DNA of 64,000 bases from Myxococcus eversor. Lineage in GTDB: Bacteria > Myxococcota > Myxococcia > Myxococcales > Myxococcaceae. The notes under the pieces were generated by a model. That model was not told the origin of the DNA. It was given only the letters and a program-made list of their open reading frames with translations, and did no database searches. Where the stretch lies: positions 62,001 to 126,000 of the forward strand of contig NZ_JAAIXY010000007.1 in the NCBI RefSeq assembly GCF_010894455.1, read 5' to 3'. The position numbers and the translations under genes are program-made. Below, in pieces: positions 27,045-39,009 of the stretch (its first letter is position 1; the number at the start of each line of letters is the position of its first letter).

Positions 27045-28634
27045 TCATCCCAGTCGATAGAGGCGGTAGTCGAGCTCCGGGAAGAGATTGTCGCGCCCTT
27101 CCAACTGAGCAAGCCAGCCCTCGTCGATGGTGCCCGCCCTCAGCTCGTCATGCAGCCGGAGGAAGTGCTGGACGTGCTCCTGGGTGCGCCGCTTCGCGTA
27201 CTCCACCATGGTGCCCGTCTTCAGGATGAAGGCCCAGTCGGAGCTCTGCGCGAGCAACAGCTCCCGCGCGGCCTGGTTGAGCGCACGACGCTGGAGCGCC
27301 GGAGCGTCCGGAAAGTCACGCGCGAGCTCCACCATCTTCCGCGCGCAGTGGGTCAGATGGCGGTAGACCCAGTCGTTGGTGCCATCCAGCCACATGTGGG
27401 CATAGCCCCCCGCGCCCCACGAGGACATCGGCGGCGTGGCCACCTGGTTCTCTGGGTTCTCTCGCAGGTCATCCAACGGCGTCACCAGGTCGAAGGTGGA
27501 CTGCTCGCGTGCCGCCTTGCGGATGAAGGCCTCCAGGAACCACGGCCCCTCGAACCACCAGTGGCCGAACAGCTCCGCGTCGTAGGGCGAGACGACCACG
27601 GGCTTGCGACCGCCAAGGCGCGAGGCCAGGTGCTCTATCTGCCGCTGCCGGTTGAAGAGGAAGTTGCCGGCATGCACGGCGGCGCGCTCTCGCGCCAGCG
27701 CGGGGTCATAGGGGCGCTTGTCGTCCGTCTTCCCGGTGATGCGGTAGTACTTGAAGCCCGTGTTCTTCCGGTCGCCCGTCGGCTGGATGAAGGGACGGAT
27801 GTAGTCGAGGTCCAGGTCCCAGCCGATGTCCCGATAGAACTCGCGGTAGTCCGGGTCGCCGGGATAGCCGTACTCGGAGCTCCAGACCTGCTGGCTGCTC
27901 TCGGGGTCCCGCGCGAAGGCGGCGACACCGGCCTCGGTGAAGATGGGCGCGTAGGGGCCGTGCAGCGGACGCGGCGTGGCGTCCGTCAGGCCATGCGTGT
28001 CCACGAAGAAGTAGCGGATGCGCTCGGCGGCGAGGATGCGCTCCAGGCCCGGGTAGTAGCCACACTCGGCCAGCCAGATGCCGGCCGGGTCTCTTCCGAA
28101 GTGCTGACGGTAGTGGTTGGAGGCCACCATCACCTGGGCGCGCACGGCCTCGGGCACCTGCTGCATGAGCGGCAGGAACCCGTGCGTCGCGTTGCACGTG
28201 AGGATGTCCAGATATCCCGCGTCCTGGAGGCGCCGGAACGCGGCGACGAGGTCTCCGCGGTAGCGGTCGTGGAAGGCGCGGCGCAGCGTCTCGAAGTGGT
28301 CCCGATAGAAGCGCGCCAGGGCCCCGAAGGTCGCGTCGGTCCGGGTGCGGTGGACCTCGCGCGCGCCCAGTTCGCAGAGCTGGTCCAGCTTCCGTGCGTA
28401 GCGCGTCATCAAAAGCTCGTCGCGCAGCATGGTGACGAGCGTGGGCGACAGCGTCATCGCCAGTCGGAACGGGACGCCATCCTCCGCCAGGGAGTCGAAG
28501 GCGAGGAGCAGCGGGAGGTACGTCTCGGAGATGGCCTCGTAGAGCCAGTCTTCCTCGAGGAAGTCCTCGTGCTCGGGGTGTCGGACGAACGGGAGATGCG
28601 CGTGAAGGACGAGTGAGAGGGAGCCCAGGCTCAT
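27045..28634 (-). CDS. GH57-family 1,4-alpha-glucan branching enzyme (DUF1957 type)
   Basis: A 529-residue cytoplasmic glycoside hydrolase family 57 protein. The N-terminal motif is LVLHAHLPFVRHP; the nucleophile Glu is in IWLAECGYYPG and the acid/base Asp in VVSPYDAELFGHWWFEGP. A C-terminal helical domain (about 430-529) matches the length of Thermus- and Thermococcus-type GH57 branching enzymes. It would introduce alpha-1,6 branches into a glycogen-like polymer. It begins 25 bases after the DUF4912 gene, and a GT4 glycosyltransferase is divergent beyond that, so the three probably work on one alpha-glucan or related polymer. Confidence 0.88.
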   Translation of the reverse strand: MSLGSLSLVLHAHLPFVRHPEHEDFLEEDWLYEAISETYLPLLLAFDSLAEDGVPFRLAMTLSPTLVTMLRDELLMTRYARKLDQLCELGAREVHRTRTDATFGALARFYRDHFETLRRAFHDRYRGDLVAAFRRLQDAGYLDILTCNATHGFLPLMQQVPEAVRAQVMVASNHYRQHFGRDPAGIWLAECGYYPGLERILAAERIRYFFVDTHGLTDATPRPLHGPYAPIFTEAGVAAFARDPESSQQVWSSEYGYPGDPDYREFYRDIGWDLDLDYIRPFIQPTGDRKNTGFKYYRITGKTDDKRPYDPALARERAAVHAGNFLFNRQRQIEHLASRLGGRKPVVVSPYDAELFGHWWFEGPWFLEAFIRKAAREQSTFDLVTPLDDLRENPENQVATPPMSSWGAGGYAHMWLDGTNDWVYRHLTHCARKMVELARDFPDAPALQRRALNQAARELLLAQSSDWAFILKTGTMVEYAKRRTQEHVQHFLRLHDELRAGTIDEGWLAQLEGRDNLFPELDYRLYRLG

Positions 28635-28659: not shown

Positions 28660-30912
28660 TCACGAGCGGCCCCCGCCCGAGGGCGGCTTCCGGTTCGAGT
28701 CCTGGTCCGAGCTGCCTGTCCCCATCGTCACCGGCTCTGGACTCGAGCCTCCCACCAGGTCCGAGTAGCGCCGGTCCGAAGCTCCGGGAGCGCGGGGCGG
28801 CGACTCGAAGTAGCGCATGTCAGAGGCACCGGGCGCACGCGCGGGGGCCTCGAAGTAGTGCAGCTCCGTGGAGCCCGTGGTGCCCGTGGGGCGAAGAGGT
28901 GCCTCGAGGCCACCTGCGTCCATGGGTCCGGCGGACCTGGGAGGAGGCTCGGCGTAGCGCATGTCCGAGGCGCCCGGCGCGCGAGCGATGTCCAGGTACT
29001 GGTACGGAGGACGGGCGTCCTTTTGCGAGGCCTGTGCCGCGCCTTCCGAATAGCGCTGTTCGGAGGAGCCCGGTGCACGCACCTGCCCGAGTTCGAGGTA
29101 TTCGAACGCACGCGGCGACGACGCGGGGCGCACCGTGCCTTCGCCGTACCGCATGTCCGAGGCGCCGGGCGCGCGCTCCTGTGCATCCAGGTAGCGATGC
29201 GAGGCGAGATAGCGCTGGTCCGAGGCACCCGGCGCGCGCTCGATGCCTTGCAGATAGGTGCCGGAGCCCGCCTGGGAGCCGGGGCCCTCGGGTGAGGGAG
29301 GAGCACCGGGACCGACACCTTCGCGGTGGACCACGGGGATGTCCTTCACTCCCGCGCTCCCGGGCAGGTTGACCCGGTGCCACGTGATGTACTCGCGCTC
29401 GTGATTCTCCGGCGCCAGCGTGGGGACTGGGGCTACAGCGACGGGGGCCTCGGGCTCCACCGGGACGGGCCGACGCAGGAAGCGCACGGACGTGTCCGTC
29501 GATACGCCCGAGGGAGGGAGCGCCACGCGATTGCTGGAGGGGCCGATGCGATGCGCCTTGCCATCGCGGCCGACGAAATGGGCTTCGACGCGGTACGGGC
29601 GCCCCGGTGGAAGTCCATGGATGTAGTAACTGCGTGACTCCAGTGAGCAGTCCACCTCGCGCACGAGGGACTCCCCATCGAAGACACGCAGGACGGACCG
29701 CGGCTCCTCCAGTCCCTGCATCGCGCGAGACCTCGTCGCGGGGCTGAAATCCCAGAGGGCGAAGAGGGTATGCGGGTCGCGCGGGAGCAGCAGCGCGGTG
29801 TCGTCGTGGTACTCGCGGGAAAGCGGCTCCTGCGCTTCGGGCTCCGGCGCGGCGAGGAGGGACGCTTCCGGCGTGGGCGCGGGTGGCTGCTGGAGGTGAT
29901 GGCGACGGGCCTCGGCCTCGCCTCGGACGCGCGCGACGAAGAAGCCCTCGACGAGCGGCTCGGCGGGGTGCTGTTCCACGGGCTCGTCTGGTGGAGCCTC
30001 GGTGCTGGAGGCGGACGGGCTGAAGGGCCGCGCCGCGTCAGGGTTGGAACCGAGCACGGCTTCGGGCTCGGTCGACGTCACGGTGTCGCGCGAACCACGA
30101 GGCTTGGGAGGGAAGTTCACGATGTGGGCCGGGCGTGCGGAAGGTGAGCTGTCGGACTTCTCTGAGGCGCGCTTGGCCGCCACGCGCTTGGGTGCGGTGA
30201 CACGTCCCTGCTCCGACATCTCGGTGGCCGCCTTTCGTGGAGTCTTTGCACGCGGCGTGTCCGTGGCGAGTGGGGCCGAGGACGTTCTCGCCTCGACGAG
30301 GGGGGCGATGGGGGGCGCCGCGACCTTCCCAGGGAGCTTGCCCAAGGCCCTGGACGCCGCCGCCGCGACCTTCGCGGGGAGCTTGCCCAGCGCCTTGGCT
30401 GCCGCCGCCACGACCTTCGATGGAGAATCGCGCGGGGCCTTCTCCTTGGATGCCGCCGCAGCGACCTTCGCCGGGGCCTTCTCCCTGGATGGCGTGGCCG
30501 GAACTTTCACCGGGCCCTGTGCCTTCGCCCGGGCTGGTGTCGCCCCAGCCGTCGCCGCGCCCTTCGCCTTTGCCGCCGCCGCCCTCCCCTTCACCGTGGG
30601 TTCGGCCTTGGCCTTGGAAGCCTTCGCGGAGACTTTCACCGAGGGAGCGGCCTTGGGCGCGCTCCGGGTCACCTGCTTGGACCTGGCGGAGGGCGTCACG
30701 GGCCGGGCGGGCCCGGAAGAGGACTTTTTCGCGGCGGGGCCCTTGCGAGGAAGCTCGATGCCGACCAACCGGGCAAGCCTGGCGAGCGAGGGCACGAACC
30801 CGGCCAGGGCGGCAATCAACTCCTCCTTATTGAGCTTGCTGTATCCGCTCCCCAGGTGCTTCCGGGCCAGCTCTCTCAGGGAGCCGACGGTGACGCTCTT
30901 GAGGTCGTCCAT
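28660..30912 (-). CDS. DUF4912 protein with Rho-N-like start, Ala/Lys linker and C-terminal RAPGASD repeats
   Basis: About 750 residues from ATG 30912 (a TTG two codons earlier is possible). Residues 1-40 resemble the small helical Rho N-terminal/SAP-like domain (LRELARKHLGSGYSKLNKEE). Residues 50-330 are low-complexity Ala/Lys/Pro. The DUF4912 domain at about 360-470 contains DTALLLPRDPHTLFALWDF and the SYYIHGLPPGRPYRVEAHF segment, an immunoglobulin-like fold often found near GH57 and glycosyltransferase genes. The last 200 residues contain the repeat listed separately. The function is unknown; a scaffold or carbohydrate-binding role for the neighbouring GH57 enzyme is a guess from context. 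Confidence 0.8.
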   Translation of the reverse strand: MDDLKSVTVGSLRELARKHLGSGYSKLNKEELIAALAGFVPSLARLARLVGIELPRKGPAAKKSSSGPARPVTPSARSKQVTRSAPKAAPSVKVSAKASKAKAEPTVKGRAAAAKAKGAATAGATPARAKAQGPVKVPATPSREKAPAKVAAAASKEKAPRDSPSKVVAAAAKALGKLPAKVAAAASRALGKLPGKVAAPPIAPLVEARTSSAPLATDTPRAKTPRKAATEMSEQGRVTAPKRVAAKRASEKSDSSPSARPAHIVNFPPKPRGSRDTVTSTEPEAVLGSNPDAARPFSPSASSTEAPPDEPVEQHPAEPLVEGFFVARVRGEAEARRHHLQQPPAPTPEASLLAAPEPEAQEPLSREYHDDTALLLPRDPHTLFALWDFSPATRSRAMQGLEEPRSVLRVFDGESLVREVDCSLESRSYYIHGLPPGRPYRVEAHFVGRDGKAHRIGPSSNRVALPPSGVSTDTSVRFLRRPVPVEPEAPVAVAPVPTLAPENHEREYITWHRVNLPGSAGVKDIPVVHREGVGPGAPPSPEGPGSQAGSGTYLQGIERAPGASDQRYLASHRYLDAQERAPGASDMRYGEGTVRPASSPRAFEYLELGQVRAPGSSEQRYSEGAAQASQKDARPPYQYLDIARAPGASDMRYAEPPPRSAGPMDAGGLEAPLRPTGTTGSTELHYFEAPARAPGASDMRYFESPPRAPGASDRRYSDLVGGSSPEPVTMGTGSSDQDSNRKPPSGGGRS
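28760..29250 (-). repeat. Protein repeat RAPGASDxRY, six good copies, in the DUF4912 protein
   Basis: Read on the minus strand, the decapeptide RAPGASDxRY occurs five times (x = Q, M, M, M, R), with one close variant (RAPGSSEQRY) and one degenerate copy (STELHY). Spacing is irregular, about 12 to 45 residues. The final four copies have aromatic or acidic residues after the Tyr (FES, FEA, AEP, SDL). It looks like a set of short linear binding motifs displayed on a disordered tail. Confidence 0.8.
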
Positions 30913-30966
30913 GGGCAAGGTCGCCTTTAGGTCGCCGGCCGTGGTGGGTCAACGTGCCAGCATTGC

Positions 30967-33900
30967 TTGTGTTCGTCGCCCGACCCCCTTCCCACCACCT
31001 CACCCGATGACACCCAGGATGCACCTCGGTATTCTGCTCCCGCTTTGAGCGACCTGCCCAGACTGCTCCTGTGCAGCTTCGACGTCATCCCCGGCCCTTC
31101 CGGCTCGTCACGTCGTTTGACCGAGTACCTCAAGGCGTTACCGGATCGCTTCTCCGTGGTGGTGCTGTCGGCGAAGACGCCCGACCACTCCCATATCGAG
31201 AAGTACCAGGGTGCTCGACTGCTGCGCGTCCCAGTAGGCTCGGGAGACCTTGCCTCGCGAATCCAGGCGTTCGAGCGGGCCGTGCGCCGTCAGCTCGAGA
31301 GCGAGGACTACGCGCTCTGCCACTTCACTGACCCCTTCGGCGGCTATGCCCTGTGCGAGCTGAAGGGGGACTACGGCTACCGCCTCATCTATGAGGCGCA
31401 GACGTTCCCCTCGCAGGAGCTGCGCTACACGCATCCGCAGACGGAGGGCGACCGGCGCTTCCTGTCGAAGGTCCGCAGGCAGGAGCTGTTCTGCCTGATG
31501 AACGCGGACCTCATCGTCACCGGCTCCCAGACGACGCGCTCGTACATCCAGTCGCTCGGCGCGAGCGAGGAGCTCATCCGGGTCGTCCGCGCGCCGGTGG
31601 ACCTGGCGCCCTACGTCCCCGACGCGCTGGGGGCGCCGGATGGCGAGCCCCTGCGGTTGATGTACCTGGGCAGCCACGTGGGCTGGCAGGGCCTGCCGAC
31701 GCTGCTGCGCGCGGTCGCGCTTGCGGCGAAGCAGGTCGAGGTGCGCCTCACCCTGGTGGGAGCGCAGCACCCGGACTGGCAGCCCCATCTGGACGAGCTC
31801 GTGAAGGAGCTGGGGCTCAAGGACCGGGTGGAGTTCCAGCCGCCCGTGCACCATGACGACGTGGCCAAGGTGCTCGCGCTGGCGGACGTGGGCGTGCTCG
31901 CGCTCGACGACGTGGAGCGCAACCGGCTCCAGGGAGGACCCCTGGCGAAGGTGTCCGAGTACTTCGCCGCGGGCCGCCCGGTCATCGCCGCCGACCTGCC
32001 TGTCTGCCGGGAGCTGATTCCGGAGGACGCCGCCCTCTTCTTCCCGGCAGGGGACAGCCGGGCCATGGCCGACCGCATCATCGAGCTGGCGCGCGACATT
32101 CCGCGCCGCGTCGAGCTGGGCAATCGGGCCCGTGAGCATGCCGAGGCCGCGCTCGACGCCGGCGTCATCCGAGGTCAGTTGCTGGACCTCTACGACTCGC
32201 TGCTGGAGAAGCGCACGGGTCCGGTGACAAGCACGAGCGAGGACGATCTCCCGGCGGCGACGATGGTGACGGGGACGCCGACCAGCCGGCTCGCGACGCT
32301 GCTGCCTCCGGACAGCGGTCGGGTGAAGATTCCCCAGCCGGAGAAGCGGGAGCCCGTCGCGGAGAACACGGCGCCGTCGTCGGACGACGCCCCCAGCGAC
32401 GACCCGCCCGTGGTGATGGGGATGGTTCTGGAGGACGGGTTCGATACGCGGCTCGTCAAGACGGAGCCGGACGCACGTCCCATTGAGCCGCCCGTCGTGA
32501 TGGGCCTGCCCCTGCGCGAGCGAGCGGCCCCGCCCGCCGCGACGACGTCGAGCACGGAGTCCTCGGCGTCGAATGGAATGGCGGCGCCCTCGCATTCCGA
32601 GCCGACACCCCTCGCCACCCCGGCGATGACGGCGGATCCGACACCTGTCACGCCCACTCGCGCGGTGTCGCCCGAGGTGGTGGGAGCCGACGAGAAGTCT
32701 TCCGCGGATCCGGTGGAGGCACGCGAGGAGCGCGCGCAGGACGAGAAGGACGAGGTGTCCAGCAAGTCCGCGACACCGCTGCTGGAGGATGCGCCCCCTG
32801 GCCCGACGCCGGTGGAGCCGCAGTCCTCGAAGTCCTCTGATGAATCCCGCGCGCGCTCTGAGGCGGGCTCACCCGTGGAGGAGAGTGAGCGCACGGGGGA
32901 ATCGCCCTCACCCACGCCGGTCGTCCGCGCACCGGCCGCGCTGGGCATCGACGAGGCGCCTTCGCCCACGCCAGTTGTACGGACGCCCGCACCGCTTCCG
33001 CTCGACGAGCCGCCTTCGCCTACGCCCATCGTTCGGGCGCCCGCGCCCCTTCAGCGGGACGAGCCGCCTTCGCCTACGCCCATCGTTCGGGCGCCCGCGC
33101 CGATTCCTCGCGAAGAACCTCCTTCACCTACGCCCATCGTTCGGGCGCCCGCGCCGATTCCTCGCGAAGAGCCGCCCTCGCCTACCCCCATCGTTCGAGC
33201 GCCTGCGCCGCTTCCGTTCGACGAGCATCCTTCGCCAACGCCCATCGTCCGGGCACCCGCGCCGCTTCAGCGGGACGAGCCGCCTTCGCCTACGCCCATC
33301 GTCCGCAGCCCCATCGCGGCGAGGCACGATGACGAAGCGCCCGCGCCGACGCCGATCATCCCAGCGCGCTCTGTGCTCGCCAGCCGCAGCACCTCGTCGA
33401 GAGTGGAGACACCGTCCCGTCGGATGTCGTCCCTCACCACGCCGACGAAGGGGACTCAGTCCCTCGACTCGGAACGCGGCGCGGATCGCCCATCGGGACG
33501 TACGCACTCGGTCTCCGACGCTGAGCGTTCAACGGGTCGCACGAGTTCCTCTACCGACTCGGAGCGTCCGTCGGCGCGCGGTACACCGGTCCCCGAGCCT
33601 GAGCGGCCCTCGACCCGCTCGGGCTCCTCTACCGACTCGGAGCGTCCGTCAGCTCGCGGTACACCGGTCCCCGAACCCGAGCGGCCCTCGGGCCGGACCT
33701 CTTCCGTGGTCGACGCGGAGCGCGCTTCGGCTCACACGGGTACGACCACCGACCCCGAGCGTCCGTCGGGCCGCACGGCCGTCCCCGAGCTTCCGCCACG
33801 AGCCACGGATCCCGAGCGCCGCACGCCACGCCCCTCGGGAGTCGTCGAGCCCGAACGCCCGCGAGGGACCTCGGACACCGATCGCCTCCCTCCACTGGTT

Positions 33901-34686
33901 CGCCCCACCCCACCCACCGAGCCCGGCCGCGCCGTCTCGCTCCGTGGAAGCGCCTCCGACCCGGAGCGTCCGCCTCCCGTCCTGACCCCAGGCCCCGTCC
34001 CCGCCATCACGGATCGTCCGGCCCTCGGAGACCACGCGCCAGACACGGAGCGCGGCCCACAGATGCTCCGACCTGGCGGCCCGAGCGAGGTTGATCGCCC
34101 GCCGGCACTCCCCCCTCGCGCCAGCGCCCCGCCTCCCGTCCCCCCTCGCCAGCGTCCGCCTCGCCTGATGTCCGTGGACGGGCCGCCCCGGCTGGAACCC
34201 ATCGAAGGGGCCGCCGCCCGCCCCTCCCTGAAGCCCGCCGAGCCCGAGGACGAGCCCGAGGAGATCTCCGAAGACGAAGCCCAGGCCATCGAGGATGGTG
34301 ACGAAGCAGGACCTACCCCATCCCACTCGCACCCACGTCTCGACGAACCCGACGAAATCAGCAGCGACGAGGTCGAGGAGGCCGAGGTCTCCGTCAGCAG
34401 CGCCGCCCAGCTGATCGAAGACGAGGACGACCTCCAGGAGGCCGAACCCGACGAGGCCCTCCCCGAGGAGACGGCGGAAGAAGACGGCCCCGCCCCCGAG
34501 CCGCTCTCCTCGACGCTCAACCCCTGGTTCGCCCAGCTCGCCCACGGGTACTGTCCGCCGGAAGGCACTCGGTTCGCCCGTCACACTCCCCCCACCACCT
34601 TCCCGGGGCGGGACGACGACACGGATCCGTCCAGGTTGCCCCCCACGCCCCGTGCACAAGGCACCGTTCGCGGCAAGGGCTCGTGA
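30967..34686 (+). CDS. GT4 glycosyltransferase fused to an ~820-residue repetitive low-complexity tail
   Basis: A 1239-residue protein. Residues 27-415 are a GT-B glycosyltransferase: an N-terminal Rossmann half (LLLCSFDVIPGPSGSSRRL) and a C-terminal half with RLMYLGSHVGWQGLPTLL, LTLVGAQHPDW and the nucleotide-sugar contact region SEYFAAGRPVIAADLPVCRELI. The remaining residues are Pro/Ser/Thr/Glu-rich: eight 18-residue repeats, then an arginine/serine-rich repeat block, then an acidic stretch, and a distinctive end (NPWFAQLAHGYCPPEG). No in-frame ATG precedes the GT domain. TTG at 30967 or TTG at 31045 must serve, neither with a clear ribosome site. It is divergent from the DUF4912 gene (54 bases) and 99 bases upstream of aglZ. 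Confidence 0.85.
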   Translation: MCSSPDPLPTTSPDDTQDAPRYSAPALSDLPRLLLCSFDVIPGPSGSSRRLTEYLKALPDRFSVVVLSAKTPDHSHIEKYQGARLLRVPVGSGDLASRIQAFERAVRRQLESEDYALCHFTDPFGGYALCELKGDYGYRLIYEAQTFPSQELRYTHPQTEGDRRFLSKVRRQELFCLMNADLIVTGSQTTRSYIQSLGASEELIRVVRAPVDLAPYVPDALGAPDGEPLRLMYLGSHVGWQGLPTLLRAVALAAKQVEVRLTLVGAQHPDWQPHLDELVKELGLKDRVEFQPPVHHDDVAKVLALADVGVLALDDVERNRLQGGPLAKVSEYFAAGRPVIAADLPVCRELIPEDAALFFPAGDSRAMADRIIELARDIPRRVELGNRAREHAEAALDAGVIRGQLLDLYDSLLEKRTGPVTSTSEDDLPAATMVTGTPTSRLATLLPPDSGRVKIPQPEKREPVAENTAPSSDDAPSDDPPVVMGMVLEDGFDTRLVKTEPDARPIEPPVVMGLPLRERAAPPAATTSSTESSASNGMAAPSHSEPTPLATPAMTADPTPVTPTRAVSPEVVGADEKSSADPVEAREERAQDEKDEVSSKSATPLLEDAPPGPTPVEPQSSKSSDESRARSEAGSPVEESERTGESPSPTPVVRAPAALGIDEAPSPTPVVRTPAPLPLDEPPSPTPIVRAPAPLQRDEPPSPTPIVRAPAPIPREEPPSPTPIVRAPAPIPREEPPSPTPIVRAPAPLPFDEHPSPTPIVRAPAPLQRDEPPSPTPIVRSPIAARHDDEAPAPTPIIPARSVLASRSTSSRVETPSRRMSSLTTPTKGTQSLDSERGADRPSGRTHSVSDAERSTGRTSSSTDSERPSARGTPVPEPERPSTRSGSSTDSERPSARGTPVPEPERPSGRTSSVVDAERASAHTGTTTDPERPSGRTAVPELPPRATDPERRTPRPSGVVEPERPRGTSDTDRLPPLVRPTPPTEPGRAVSLRGSASDPERPPPVLTPGPVPAITDRPALGDHAPDTERGPQMLRPGGPSEVDRPPALPPRASAPPPVPPRQRPPRLMSVDGPPRLEPIEGAAARPSLKPAEPEDEPEEISEDEAQAIEDGDEAGPTPSHSHPRLDEPDEISSDEVEEAEVSVSSAAQLIEDEDDLQEAEPDEALPEETAEEDGPAPEPLSSTLNPWFAQLAHGYCPPEGTRFARHTPPTTFPGRDDDTDPSRLPPTPRAQGTVRGKGS
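32896..33327 (+). repeat. Eight tandem 54-base units encoding an 18-residue PSPTPIVRAPAP repeat
   Basis: Eight in-register units of 18 residues follow the pattern (D/E)EPPSPTPIVRAPAPxxx. Units 3 to 7 are nearly identical at the protein level and very similar in DNA; units 1, 2 and 8 are diverged. The exact 54-base period and the central homogeneity suggest expansion by unequal crossing-over or slippage, so copy number may vary between strains. Confidence 0.9.
33460..33890 (+). repeat. Second repeat block in the glycosyltransferase tail (ERPSxRT/G units)
   Basis: After the first repeat the protein continues with repeated DSERPSARGTPVPEPERPS-like units: DAERSTGRT, DSERPSARG, EPERPSTRS, DSERPSARG, EPERPSGRT, DAERASAHT and DPERPSGRT. 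Two 75-base DNA segments around 33555 and 33630 are close copies. The composition (Arg, Ser, Pro, Glu) indicates a disordered region. Confidence 0.75.
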
Positions 34687-34785
34687 AGCAGCCAACCGAG
34701 CACCCTCCGGAAACTTTCCAAGCCTCGGGCCCGCCCAGTAGGATGTTGCGGTTTTCACTGCACTTTTTGCGGGTGGAAGGGCTTC

Positions 34786-37700
34786 ATGGAGCGCCGCGTC
34801 CTCATCGTTGAAAGCCAAAACGACTTCGCCCTCAGCATGGCGACCGTGCTCAAGAGCGCGGGCTACCAGACCGCCATGGCGGCGACTGCCACGGATGCGC
34901 AGCGCGAGCTGGAGAAACGCCGGCCGGATCTCGTCGTCCTCCGAGCCGAGCTGCCGGATCAATCCGGGTTCACGCTGTGCGGGCAGATCAAGAAGGGCAA
35001 GTGGGGCCAGAATCTCAAGGTCCTGCTCCTGTCCTCCGACACGGGAGTCGAAGGCTTGACGCAGCACCGGCAGACGCCGGGCGCCGCGGACGGCTACCTC
35101 GTCATCCCCTTCGAAATGGGAGAGCTCGCCTCGTTGAGCACCGGCATCGTCCCCACGGGTGCGGAGGAATCCGACGCGGACCTCGACGCCGCGCTCTCCG
35201 GCAACCCGCGCGAGGCTCCGCCTCCGATGCCCGCCATCCGCACCAGTCCCGGCGGCCCACCCAAGCTCCCCAAGCGCGAACGACGCAGTGCGATGACGGA
35301 AGAGGACCGCGCGTTCCTCGACCGCGCGTTCCAATCCATCGCCGACCGCAAGGCGGAGCTGCTGGCGGAGTCGCGTCAGCTCAAGCGCCCGCCTCCTCGC
35401 CGCGAGCTGATGGGCACGCCGGAGGGGAAGATCCAAATCCTCCGCGACGAGCTCAAGACGCGCGAGGCCCAGCTCGCCCGCCTCTCCGAAATCTGGAGCG
35501 TGCGCGAGCGCGAGCTCCTGTCCGGCGAGGACCGGCTCCACGAGAAGGACGTGGAGCTGCAAGGCCTCAAGATGCAGGTGGACGACCTGCTGCGCCGCTT
35601 CAATGAAGCGCAGCAAGCCATGCTCCAGAAGGAACGCGAGCACGGCGCCACCGTCGATGACCTGCTGCTGCAGAAGTTCTCCTCGGAGAAGGACCTCATC
35701 GAGGTCGTCGCATCCAAGGAGAAGGACATCAACGTGCTCCGCAAGGAGGTCCACAACCGCGAGGACGAAATCGCGCGGCGTGGCACCGACCTGGAGCACC
35801 TGCGAGCCGAGTTCGACAAGCTCGAGAAGCTCCACAACGTCGTCACGCTGGAGTTCGAGGTCAAGGAGCAGAAGCTCCAGGACACCGTCCGCGCGAACGA
35901 GGCGGAGATCGCCCAGTTGGGCAAGCGCGGCGACGACTTCGAGTCGGAGCTGGGCCGCACCGTCAGCGAGCGGGATCAGCGCTATGCCGAGCTGGACGGA
36001 GAGATTCAGGCCCTCCAGGAGCGGCTGCAGCAGACGGAGCAGGAGCGCGACACCACCGTCCGCGGCCTGGAGACCCGGGCCGCCTCCGCCGAGGAGCACG
36101 GCGCCCGGGGCGACGCGGAGATCATCCGGCTGAACGCGGAGCGCGACTCGCTGGAGGCGCGCCTCAGTCAGCAGGTGGCGGATCTGGAGGCGGACCTCGC
36201 GCGCACCACGAGCGAGCGCGAGCAGCTCCGGATGGACAAGGACGCGCAGGAGACGGAGCTCAATCAGCGCGTCGATGACCGCGACGCGAAGATCTCCTCC
36301 CTGGACCGCGAGCTGGCGGAGGCCATCGAGCGCAACGAGCGCACCGAGGCCGACCTCAACTCCAACATCCAGCAGCAACTGGAGCGCATCGGCGAGTTGG
36401 AGGGCGAGGTCGAGGCCGTCAAGGCGCACCTGGCCGACCGCGAAGCCGAGCTGTCCGGCGAACTCCAGGCGCTCACCGACGCGAAGAACGCGCTGGAAGA
36501 GGACCTCACCGGCCGTCTCGAGGCGCTTCAAATCGCCAAGGACGCGCTGGACGAGGACCTCACCCGGCAGCTCGAGGAGCTTCGCGCGGCGAAGGCCGAG
36601 CTGGAGGCCGACCTCACCGGCCAGATTCAAGCCCTCACCTCGCAGCTCGAGGAGTCGCAGCGCATTGGAGATCAGCTCCAGGCGCGCGTCGTGTCGCTGG
36701 AGGACACCGTCGCCCAGCGCGAGTCCACCATCGAGGGGCTCCAGGGCGACGTCGCGGCGAGGGATCAGCGCATCTCCGAGCTGACGGGAGACCTGGAAGC
36801 CACCAGCCAGACGCTCTCGCAGACGCAGGACACGCTGGCCCGCACCGAGCAGCAGCTCGCGGACACGCAGAACACCCTGGCGAGCACGGAGCAGTCGCTC
36901 TCCGAGACGCGGGGCGAGCTGGAGGCCACCAGCCAGTCGCTGAGCGAGACGCAGACGCGGCTGGCCCAGACGGAAGAGGCGCTGTCGACGACGCGCGGCG
37001 AGTTGGAGGCCACCAGCCAGACGCTCTCGCAGACGCAGGACACGCTGTCGCGCACGGAGCAGCAGCTCGCGGACACGCAAGGCACGCTGGCCCAGACAGA
37101 GGGCACGCTGGCCGAGACGCGCGGCGAGCTGGAGGCCACCAGCCAGACGCTCACCCAGACGCAGAACACGCTGGAGGAGACGCGCGACGCGCTGGGCACC
37201 ACCACCGCGCAGCGCGACGGCCTCAAGGTCGAGCTGGATGACACGCACGAGACGCTGCGGACGACCCAGGCCGCGCTGGCCAGGACGACGGGCGAGCGGG
37301 ACCAGCGCATCGCCGAGCTGCAGGCCCTGAGCGAGGCCAAGGACGCTCTGGAGCAACTGCTCACCGGCCAGATCGGGAATCTGCGCGGAGAGCTCGCGGA
37401 GACGCTGGGCAACTACGAGGCGGAGCGGGCCGCGCACGAGAAGCTCGCCGCCGAGACGAGCGCGAGCATCGAGGCGCTCACGGGTGAGCGCGACGGGCTG
37501 CGCTCGGAGCTGGAGGCCACCAGCCAGTCGCTGGAGCAGGTGCAGGGACAGCTCGCCGCGACGAGCGACGCCCTGTCGCGCGAGCAGCAGGCCCACTCCA
37601 ACAGCCGTCAGCAGGCCGCCAACACCCAGGCCGCGCTGGAAGCGGACCTCAACGAAACGCGCAACCAGGTGGAGGAGCTGGGCGAACAGCTCACCATCAC

Positions 37701-39009
37701 CAAGCACGAGCTGGGCGCCCGGGTGGCGGAAGTCACCCAGTTGTCCTCCCAGCTCGCGCAGGTGGAGGACACACGGGCGACCCTCAAGGAGCGGCTGGAC
37801 GCGCTCACCGAGGAGTCCCAGCGCCGCGAGGAGCTGCTCCAGAACGACCTGGCCACCAAGGGCAAGGAGCTGTCGGACACGCTGCGCAAGCTCACCCAGG
37901 TGACGCAGGAGAAGATGCGTCAGGCCGAGGTGCTCAACCGCGAGGTCGCCACCCGCACCGAGCAGCTCAAGGCGATGGAGACCAAGCTCCAGACCCAGGC
38001 CGCCGACGCCAAGCGCCACGCGGACGGACTCGGCCAGCAGATGGCCGGGCTCAACAACCAGTTCGAGCTGGCGAAGAAGACGCTCGGCGAGCGCGAGGAG
38101 CAGCTGCGCGCGGCGGGTGCCCAGCACCAGAAGCTGACGCAGGAGCGCGACGGCATCAACGGTCAGCTCCAGCAATCCGAGGCCCGCCTCCAGCAGCAGG
38201 CACAGCAGGCGCAGCAGGAGCGCGCCGAGGCGAAGCGCGCCTCCGACGAGCTGGCGGCGAAGCTGGCCAAGTCCGAGCAGCGCGTCGCGCAGCTCACCCA
38301 GGAGGCCCAGGCGAAGGCCGCCGACGCCGAGGCGAAGGCCAAGGACATGCAGGCCCAGCTCGCCACCCGCGCCAAGAAGGCGCAGGACCTGGAGCTGGCA
38401 CTGGAGAACGCCCAGGGCGCCAAGGCCCGCGCGGAGAAGGACCTGGCCGCCAAGGTCGCCGCCGCCGAGGGCAAGGCCAACGAGGCCGCCGCCCGACTGG
38501 CCACCGCCCAGAAGGAGCGCAAGGACCTGGAGACGCGGCAGCTGCGCGAAATCGAGGAGCTGGGCGCCAAGCAGAAGGCGGAGCTGGAACGCCGCGAGGC
38601 CATCAAGACGCAGGAAGTCACCCGCCTGCAGCAGTCCGTGCAGGAGAAGAGCAAGGCGCTCAAGGTCGCGGAGCTGGAACTGGCTCGATTCAAGAGCAAG
38701 TCACCCGCCACGCCCGCCCCGGTGGCCGCCAAGGCCGCCAAGGCCGCTCCAGCCCCCGAGGACGACGAGCTCGCGACCAGGCCGCAGCTCAATCAGGTCA
38801 TCCCCGCCGCGGCGGCGGCTCCCGCCAAGGCCGCCAAGGCCGCCGCGAAGCCCGCCCCCGCCGCCAAGAAGGCCGCCGCCCCCGCCCCCGCACCGCTGGG
38901 TGGCGACGAGTCGGAGCCCACCGACCGCACCATGGTCATGCAGATCCCCGTCGGCGGCGTGAAGGAAGACGACGACTGGACGGCGCTGGTGGACGAGCTG
39001 GACAAGTAG
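34786..39009 (+). CDS. aglZ: AglZ-type protein: pseudo-receiver domain plus very long coiled coil
   Basis: A 1407-residue protein that matches the architecture and length of Myxococcus xanthus AglZ (about 1395 residues), a filament-forming regulator that localises at gliding focal adhesions. Residues 1-125 form a receiver-like domain (RRVLIVESQNDFALSMA). The phospho-acceptor position is Arg53 (VVLRAELPDQSG) rather than Asp, so it cannot be phosphorylated there. Residues 125-200 are a Pro-rich linker. About 205-1310 is an almost continuous coiled coil with regular heptads, including an exact heptad-multiple repeat block. The end is an Ala/Lys/Pro-rich tail closing with an acidic WTALVDELDK. 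FrzS has the same plan but is far shorter. The start is ATG 34786 after GGGTGGAAGGGCTTC. Confidence 0.85.
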   Translation: MERRVLIVESQNDFALSMATVLKSAGYQTAMAATATDAQRELEKRRPDLVVLRAELPDQSGFTLCGQIKKGKWGQNLKVLLLSSDTGVEGLTQHRQTPGAADGYLVIPFEMGELASLSTGIVPTGAEESDADLDAALSGNPREAPPPMPAIRTSPGGPPKLPKRERRSAMTEEDRAFLDRAFQSIADRKAELLAESRQLKRPPPRRELMGTPEGKIQILRDELKTREAQLARLSEIWSVRERELLSGEDRLHEKDVELQGLKMQVDDLLRRFNEAQQAMLQKEREHGATVDDLLLQKFSSEKDLIEVVASKEKDINVLRKEVHNREDEIARRGTDLEHLRAEFDKLEKLHNVVTLEFEVKEQKLQDTVRANEAEIAQLGKRGDDFESELGRTVSERDQRYAELDGEIQALQERLQQTEQERDTTVRGLETRAASAEEHGARGDAEIIRLNAERDSLEARLSQQVADLEADLARTTSEREQLRMDKDAQETELNQRVDDRDAKISSLDRELAEAIERNERTEADLNSNIQQQLERIGELEGEVEAVKAHLADREAELSGELQALTDAKNALEEDLTGRLEALQIAKDALDEDLTRQLEELRAAKAELEADLTGQIQALTSQLEESQRIGDQLQARVVSLEDTVAQRESTIEGLQGDVAARDQRISELTGDLEATSQTLSQTQDTLARTEQQLADTQNTLASTEQSLSETRGELEATSQSLSETQTRLAQTEEALSTTRGELEATSQTLSQTQDTLSRTEQQLADTQGTLAQTEGTLAETRGELEATSQTLTQTQNTLEETRDALGTTTAQRDGLKVELDDTHETLRTTQAALARTTGERDQRIAELQALSEAKDALEQLLTGQIGNLRGELAETLGNYEAERAAHEKLAAETSASIEALTGERDGLRSELEATSQSLEQVQGQLAATSDALSREQQAHSNSRQQAANTQAALEADLNETRNQVEELGEQLTITKHELGARVAEVTQLSSQLAQVEDTRATLKERLDALTEESQRREELLQNDLATKGKELSDTLRKLTQVTQEKMRQAEVLNREVATRTEQLKAMETKLQTQAADAKRHADGLGQQMAGLNNQFELAKKTLGEREEQLRAAGAQHQKLTQERDGINGQLQQSEARLQQQAQQAQQERAEAKRASDELAAKLAKSEQRVAQLTQEAQAKAADAEAKAKDMQAQLATRAKKAQDLELALENAQGAKARAEKDLAAKVAAAEGKANEAAARLATAQKERKDLETRQLREIEELGAKQKAELERREAIKTQEVTRLQQSVQEKSKALKVAELELARFKSKSPATPAPVAAKAAKAAPAPEDDELATRPQLNQVIPAAAAAPAKAAKAAAKPAPAAKKAAAPAPAPLGGDESEPTDRTMVMQIPVGGVKEDDDWTALVDELDK
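36787..37206 (+). repeat. Heptad-phased repeat block in the AglZ coiled coil
   Basis: The phrase G(D/E)LEATSQ(T/S)L recurs at 36787, 36913, 36997 and 37123, that is at intervals of 126, 84 and 126 bases (42, 28 and 42 residues). All intervals are whole numbers of heptads, and nearly every heptad inside reads xxLxxTx. The spacing keeps the hydrophobic seam in register, so repeat gain or loss would change rod length without breaking the coil. Confidence 0.9.

Follow-up and report, generated by a model that had tools for sequence, protein, structure and literature searches.

A 64,000-nucleotide stretch of the Myxococcus eversor genome (contig NZ_JAAIXY010000007.1, positions 62,001 to 126,000; hereafter the window) contains a gene in which a glycosyltransferase (GT) domain is followed by a long disordered tail. 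The gene occupies 30967-34686 on the + strand as one unbroken frame of 1239 amino acids (aa), counted from the first TTG. An earlier note on this DNA had proposed a single gene for a GT4 enzyme plus a tail of ~820 residues, which the unbroken frame and its Pfam GT4 matches bear out. The frame stands as given there, and the start moves from the first TTG to the likelier TTG 31045, 26 codons downstream. A start codon occupies this position in 64 of 67 relatives (TTG in 52, GTG in 11, ATG in 1), and a GTATYCT box lies within 25 nucleotides (nt) upstream of it in 46 of the 67. In the window this −10-like box, a putative promoter element, is found at 31028-31035 (+), just 5′ of the TTG. Because the start codon and the upstream box both recur in relatives, the protein is probably 1213 aa long; residue numbers of domain and tail parts run from TTG 31045. 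In the tailless g37 genes L107-L109, GGTATATATAGCAT abuts the GTG start on its 5′ side, which may make a leaderless transcript likely for them as well.

The 67 relatives are fetched loci, 63 from the family and four from other families of the order. Of 96 family genomes, 86 have a GT match at E ≤ 1e-40, the window's own included; the 63 loci come from the 85 others, and 22 further family genomes with a match lie outside the fetched set.

Residues 1-390 (31045-32214, +) are predicted to adopt a GT-B fold of the GT4 type, as indicated by Pfam, an AlphaFold model and structure comparison. Pfam GT4 families match well above their gathering cut-offs: PF13692 (E 7.8e-20, 72 bits against 27), PF00534 (E 4.2e-16, 59.4 bits against 26.4) and PF13439 (E 1.1e-11, 45.5 bits against 28.5). 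The AlphaFold model spans residues 1-1200, including the C-terminal motif described below. Within it, residues 1-390 reach a mean predicted local distance difference test score (pLDDT) of 76-98 per ten-residue block, and modelled residues 4-390 match the GT-B folds of sucrose-phosphate synthase (SPS; 6kih) and MshA (3c4q) with Z of 40.8 and 39.4. Membership of GT4 is assigned on this modelled fold and on sequence family, and is not a claim of activity.

The Arg and Lys of the GR..KG motif, which we take to bind diphosphate, and the presumably catalytic EX7E pair were read from a 17-row family alignment against MshA. The Lys is replaced by Gln in all 17 rows, and the Arg by Ser in 13, Asn in 2 and Ala in 1, with Arg kept in 1. 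Unlike MshA, the window GT has Ser and Gln for the GR..KG Arg and Lys and Gly for the first Glu of EX7E, and so holds neither the basic residues nor the complete EX7E pair; the second Glu is present in 14 of 17 rows (exceptions L097, L066 and L069). These replacements would fit a pseudo-enzyme, a GT-B domain that no longer transfers sugar and serves as a folded scaffold module, as would one relative (G092, below) that has lost the GT domain and retains the terminal motif of the tail. We consider this unlikely. Among the GTs of the same genome used for comparison, L001 has both Arg and Lys and L006 the Lys, whereas the nearest paralogue, C113, has neither, and an ordinary GT4 variant may therefore explain the residue changes. 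Also counting against a pseudo-enzyme, the ratio of nonsynonymous to synonymous change (pN/pS), obtained by codon comparison of the window gene with five relatives, is 0.07-0.22 over the GT domain.

The tail extends for ~820 residues beyond this domain. As the earlier note had anticipated in calling for structure and disorder prediction, most residues beyond 391 fall below pLDDT 50, and the sole modelled helix of at least four residues comprises residues 1160-1166. GT and tail form one protein across the family, and the tail is kept in orthologues: 56 of 59 complete family loci carry one of 181-1425 aa (median 589.5), and the remaining three, all g37, carry 44-51 aa. This count omits the contig-cut L063, L064, L065 and L106, each no more than 28 nt from a contig end, and the out-of-family L066-L069. 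In the genus (20 loci) tails range from 619 to 1425 aa, and composition stays roughly constant despite the differing lengths. The tail is real, kept in the family and, in the model, disordered.

Conservation across a 57-row family alignment is unevenly spread along the tail, whose parts all lie on the + strand. Island 1, of TGTPTNR type, covers residues 401-420 (32245-32304), and island 2, with two PPVVMG motifs flanking DTRLVKTEP, covers residues 453-491 (32401-32517); elsewhere in the same genome the next best match to island 2 has merely E 0.45. Twin acidic motifs, PEEISEDEA and EPDEISSDEVEEAE, follow at residues 1066-1115 (34240-34389). Between the islands and the acidic motifs lies a variable repeat region (residues 492-1065) with majority identities of 0.07-0.63 per ten-residue block. 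It holds two lineage-specific arrays. Eight 18-residue PSPTP(I/V)VR repeats span 32905-33360, where P[ST]PTP[IVL][VIL] occurs 8 times at a spacing of 18 residues and Tandem Repeats Finder reports a 54-bp unit at 32949-33302 (6.6 copies, 83% matches). An ERPS-type block spans 33466-34098, limits set by eye, and the same program detects it as 39/78-bp repeats inside 33547-33722. Both arrays, the acidic segment and a conserved-looking end had been described in the earlier note, and each was recovered here, with the end showing the highest conservation anywhere in the tail. In the five pairs pN/pS is 0.24-0.59 for the variable region, 0-0.72 for island 1, 0.14-0.61 for island 2 and 0.07-0.48 for the twin acidic motifs, so that the islands are less constant than the C-terminal motif.

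This C-terminal motif, a candidate docking peptide, covers residues 1155-1190 (34507-34614, +) and contains the modelled short helix 1160-1166. Its consensus is SxLNPWFAQLAHGYCPPEGxxFARHTPPTTFPGRD, with the core PWFAQLAHGYCPP. The ten-residue blocks across 1161-1190 have majority identities of 0.95, 0.80 and 0.94, and pN/pS of the motif in the five pairs is 0, 0.04, 0.17, 0.17 and 0.06; the 23 residues beyond it are loose, with values up to 0.59. By codon comparison, the motif is under purifying selection and as constrained as the GT domain, with fast change in between.

At E ≤ 0.01, a search with a model of the motif picked up 83 of the 96 family genomes, with at most one strong match per genome. 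The count falls to 82 of 96 without the G100 row (E = 0.0078, probably chance); second rows in G047, G082 and G111 are probably chance as well, making four doubtful rows overall (E 0.005-0.009). Strong matches sit either in the long frame of the GT gene or in a short frame taken as a contig-cut tail, a reading that covers 13 genomes and is seen directly in G012, G066 and G053 only, where the contig breaks inside the tail and the motif still lies ahead of aglZ. No other protein of the window's own genome matched below E 0.1. Across the genomes searched, the motif is private to the GT-plus-tail protein, with no second credible copy in any of them.

The earlier note had likened the tail to multivalent scaffolds of the kind that drive clustering or condensate formation. 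A long disordered tail rich in P, S, T, D and E with tandem repeats has the general look of one, but the PSPTPIV repeat, with 8 copies in the window and 5 in L043, the closest relative, is present in 22 of 63 relatives and missing from the other 41. Conserved multivalent repeats, as a phase-separating scaffold should have, were thus not found across the 63 relatives. The window tail is also poor in aromatic and other hydrophobic residues (FWYILMVC, 15%), and its conservation is concentrated in the terminal motif. Repeat type and number differ by lineage, and the conserved parts are the terminal motif and a small number of short islands. This pattern suits a tether that carries a docking site, not a sticker array, and we regard the condensate proposal as highly improbable.

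Directly downstream, 99 bp from the GT gene, lies a 1407-aa gene (34786-39009, +) encoding a pseudo-receiver and a long coiled coil. The receiver matches PF00072 (E 6.1e-12) and the FrzS structure 2gkg (1.9e-12), and coiled-coil families match weakly. According to an excerpt of PMC4546325, AglZ (MXAN_2991) and FrzS (MXAN_4149) are paralogous, MglA-interacting proteins whose coils measure 1076 and 235 residues, respectively. We rejected frzS as the identity of the downstream gene, as its similarity to 2gkg is weak and the true frzS lies elsewhere in the genome (receiver E 6.6e-62 to 2gkg, 615-codon frame). Because this separate frzS exists and the long coil fits the description of AglZ, the gene is taken as aglZ, an A-motility regulator, by architecture and length rather than by alignment to M. 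xanthus AglZ.

The pairing of the two genes is widespread: 62 of the 67 fetched loci have aglZ directly downstream of the GT. Of the five exceptions, three (L064, L065 and L106) run off a contig end and L063 ends 28 nt short of one; in L068, from another family, aglZ was not found downstream although 1.1 kb is present. The gap between GT and aglZ is divisible by 3 in 43 of 57 rows, the window counted in. Stop-codon read-through fusing GT to AglZ was nevertheless rejected, because further in-frame stops sit in many of these gaps. We likewise do not claim that tail length acts as a ruler for AglZ: the two lengths correlate across 57 loci (Spearman 0.59, kinship uncorrected, two loci with broken aglZ frames), and without the broken-frame loci the coefficient drops to 0.28 in the genus (n = 19) and 0.47 in the rest (n = 36), again uncorrected for kinship.

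Other features of this region concern AglZ and the opposite strand. AglZ ends in a conserved DDDWTALVDELDK-type peptide (window 38968-39006; L043-L104), which drifts to DFTSIIDKLGE in some genera. The aglZ frames of L058 and L084 stop early, after 1014 and 398 codons; these could be frameshifts or assembly errors. An antisense open frame of 1508 aa (33649-38175, −) spans tail and aglZ and is probably an effect of high G+C.

Upstream and divergent from the GT gene are a DUF4912 protein with repeats of its own (28660-30918, −) and a GH57 1,4-alpha-glucan branching enzyme (27045-28634, −). The DUF4912 protein carries RAPGASDMRY-type repeats and lysine/alanine-rich stretches, so that three adjacent genes have repeat-rich segments. 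With GH57 on 52 and DUF4912 on 51 of the 67 fetched pieces, the GT might be an ordinary enzyme of this adjoining glucan module with an unimportant tail. We find this very doubtful, since the terminal motif is constrained like the enzyme itself, and the GT-aglZ pair persists where DUF4912 was not found. The pairing with aglZ (62 of 67) also exceeds that with either divergent gene, although a few pieces have little upstream DNA (less than 500 bases in L067 and L096).

Ten family genomes have no GT match; six of them have aglZ, and in four (G062, G090, G098 and G099) aglZ was not detected either. Three of the six, G012, G066 and G053, are the contig breaks within the tail noted above; the others are G086, G092 and G097. 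G062 (g20; 20 contigs, 99% complete) lacks detectable GT and aglZ, and the GT is present in most of its genus. G092 has lost the GT domain; its aglZ is preceded by a stop-to-stop frame of 119 codons that contains an acidic stretch and SVLEPWLAQLLQGYCP. The motif thus stays in front of aglZ after loss of the GT, which suggests an independent role for the tail end. The GT is encoded at 87% identity in L129 (BNCN01000003.1, titled Comamonas sp. KCTC 72670), whose source is probably a Myxococcus relative under a wrong record title.

We propose that the gene encodes an enzyme, or a former enzyme, whose disordered tether tolerates changes in length and terminates in a docking peptide, with the AglZ complex as a plausible target. 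A GT-B protein, presumably cytoplasmic, would be carried on the long tether; the C-terminal peptide, with its PWFAQLAHGYCPP core and modelled short helix, would bind one fixed protein partner; and AglZ itself, or a different component of the AglZ/MglA gliding complex, would be this partner. Such binding would keep the GT domain close to the gliding complex, and the variable repeats would set its reach while contributing no specific contact. We hold this reading tentatively, at a little less than an even chance. Within it, AglZ or its complex is the leading but unproven candidate partner.

Several observations weigh against this proposal. Adjacency of GT and aglZ does not equal interaction. When the tail end was joined to the AglZ receiver in AlphaFold, the receiver was modelled well and the tail end at pLDDT 47-63, which gives no confident docking; in the 1-1200 model the blocks of the C-terminal motif have pLDDT 39-47, with no confident docking on the GT either. 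Moreover, aglZ occurs where the long tail is missing: in G097 it follows a GT of 33% identity that has no tail, G086 has aglZ without GT or tail, and three g37 genomes keep GT and aglZ with no long tail. The G092 remnant comes from a single fragmented assembly (910 contigs), and its start codon is unsettled. The four genomes in which neither GT nor aglZ was detected include two, G098 and G099, with a completeness of 82-87%, and scoring in G062 covered 150 of 230 receiver candidates.

The deeper history points the same way. GT homologues extend to other Myxococcota families, with matches in 113 of 195 genomes at E ≤ 1e-50, paralogues counted. In the f2/f3 relatives L066, L067, L069 and L225 the protein ends in W...GY/F.P, sharing W, G and P with the C-terminal motif, and an aglZ-like receiver gene is next. 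In the more distant f11 relatives the GT carries a 171-246 aa tail, and 6 of 7 (L210-L214 and L216) have LLGGPPF/Y, a possibly related motif; aglZ was not found beside the GT in any of these seven loci. The tail may thus be older than the aglZ pairing and bind something else, and because f11 tails occur without aglZ alongside, AglZ becomes a weaker candidate for the partner. A docked tether whose partner predates aglZ (a polysaccharide-synthesis or envelope protein, for instance), with aglZ as merely a long-standing neighbour, would accommodate the f11 tails and the shared W, G and P, as well as the presence of GH57 and DUF4912 near the GT in most loci. It fits less well with the pairing of aglZ in more loci than GH57 or DUF4912, or with the motif preceding aglZ in G092 where no GT domain is left; on balance we think an older partner somewhat unlikely.

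How myxobacterial gliding relates to the polysaccharide that is left behind and gripped is an old question. A gene for a GT4-type protein that keeps its place beside aglZ throughout the family and encodes a single conserved terminal peptide offers a sharp experimental handle on the link between gliding and slime, and the tails form a natural series of disordered tethers, 181-1425 aa in the family, with fixed ends. No paper describing a GT-plus-tail gene was found in the literature searched, in which older motility work is incompletely covered.

In its boldest form, the proposal would add this protein to the myxobacterial gliding machinery as a new component: an enzyme that transfers sugar, is held to AglZ at focal adhesions by its terminal peptide and couples local slime or envelope glycan synthesis to the place and time of surface grip. 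This we judge decidedly unlikely. Mutants in five exopolysaccharide (EPS) biosynthesis genes still glide, as stated in an excerpt of PMC7484181, and this persistence of gliding after loss of the known EPS speaks against such a part; any glycan made by the window GT would accordingly not be that EPS.

Compared with known systems, the predicted GT domain resembles the GT4 enzymes MshA (3c4q), SPS (6kih) and BshA (3mbo) in its GT-B fold (residues 4-390, Z 36-41). Unlike these enzymes, it continues into an 820-aa disordered tail. The downstream gene resembles AglZ (MXAN_2991) in receiver and coil architecture and in length, whereas the GT-plus-tail protein has neither a receiver nor a coiled coil. 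In layout, the protein is closest to what we take to be the plan of FtsZ-type proteins, a folded domain, a fast-evolving linker of variable length and a conserved terminal peptide. The likeness is one of layout, and the partner, in contrast to FtsZ-type proteins, is here a proposed one.

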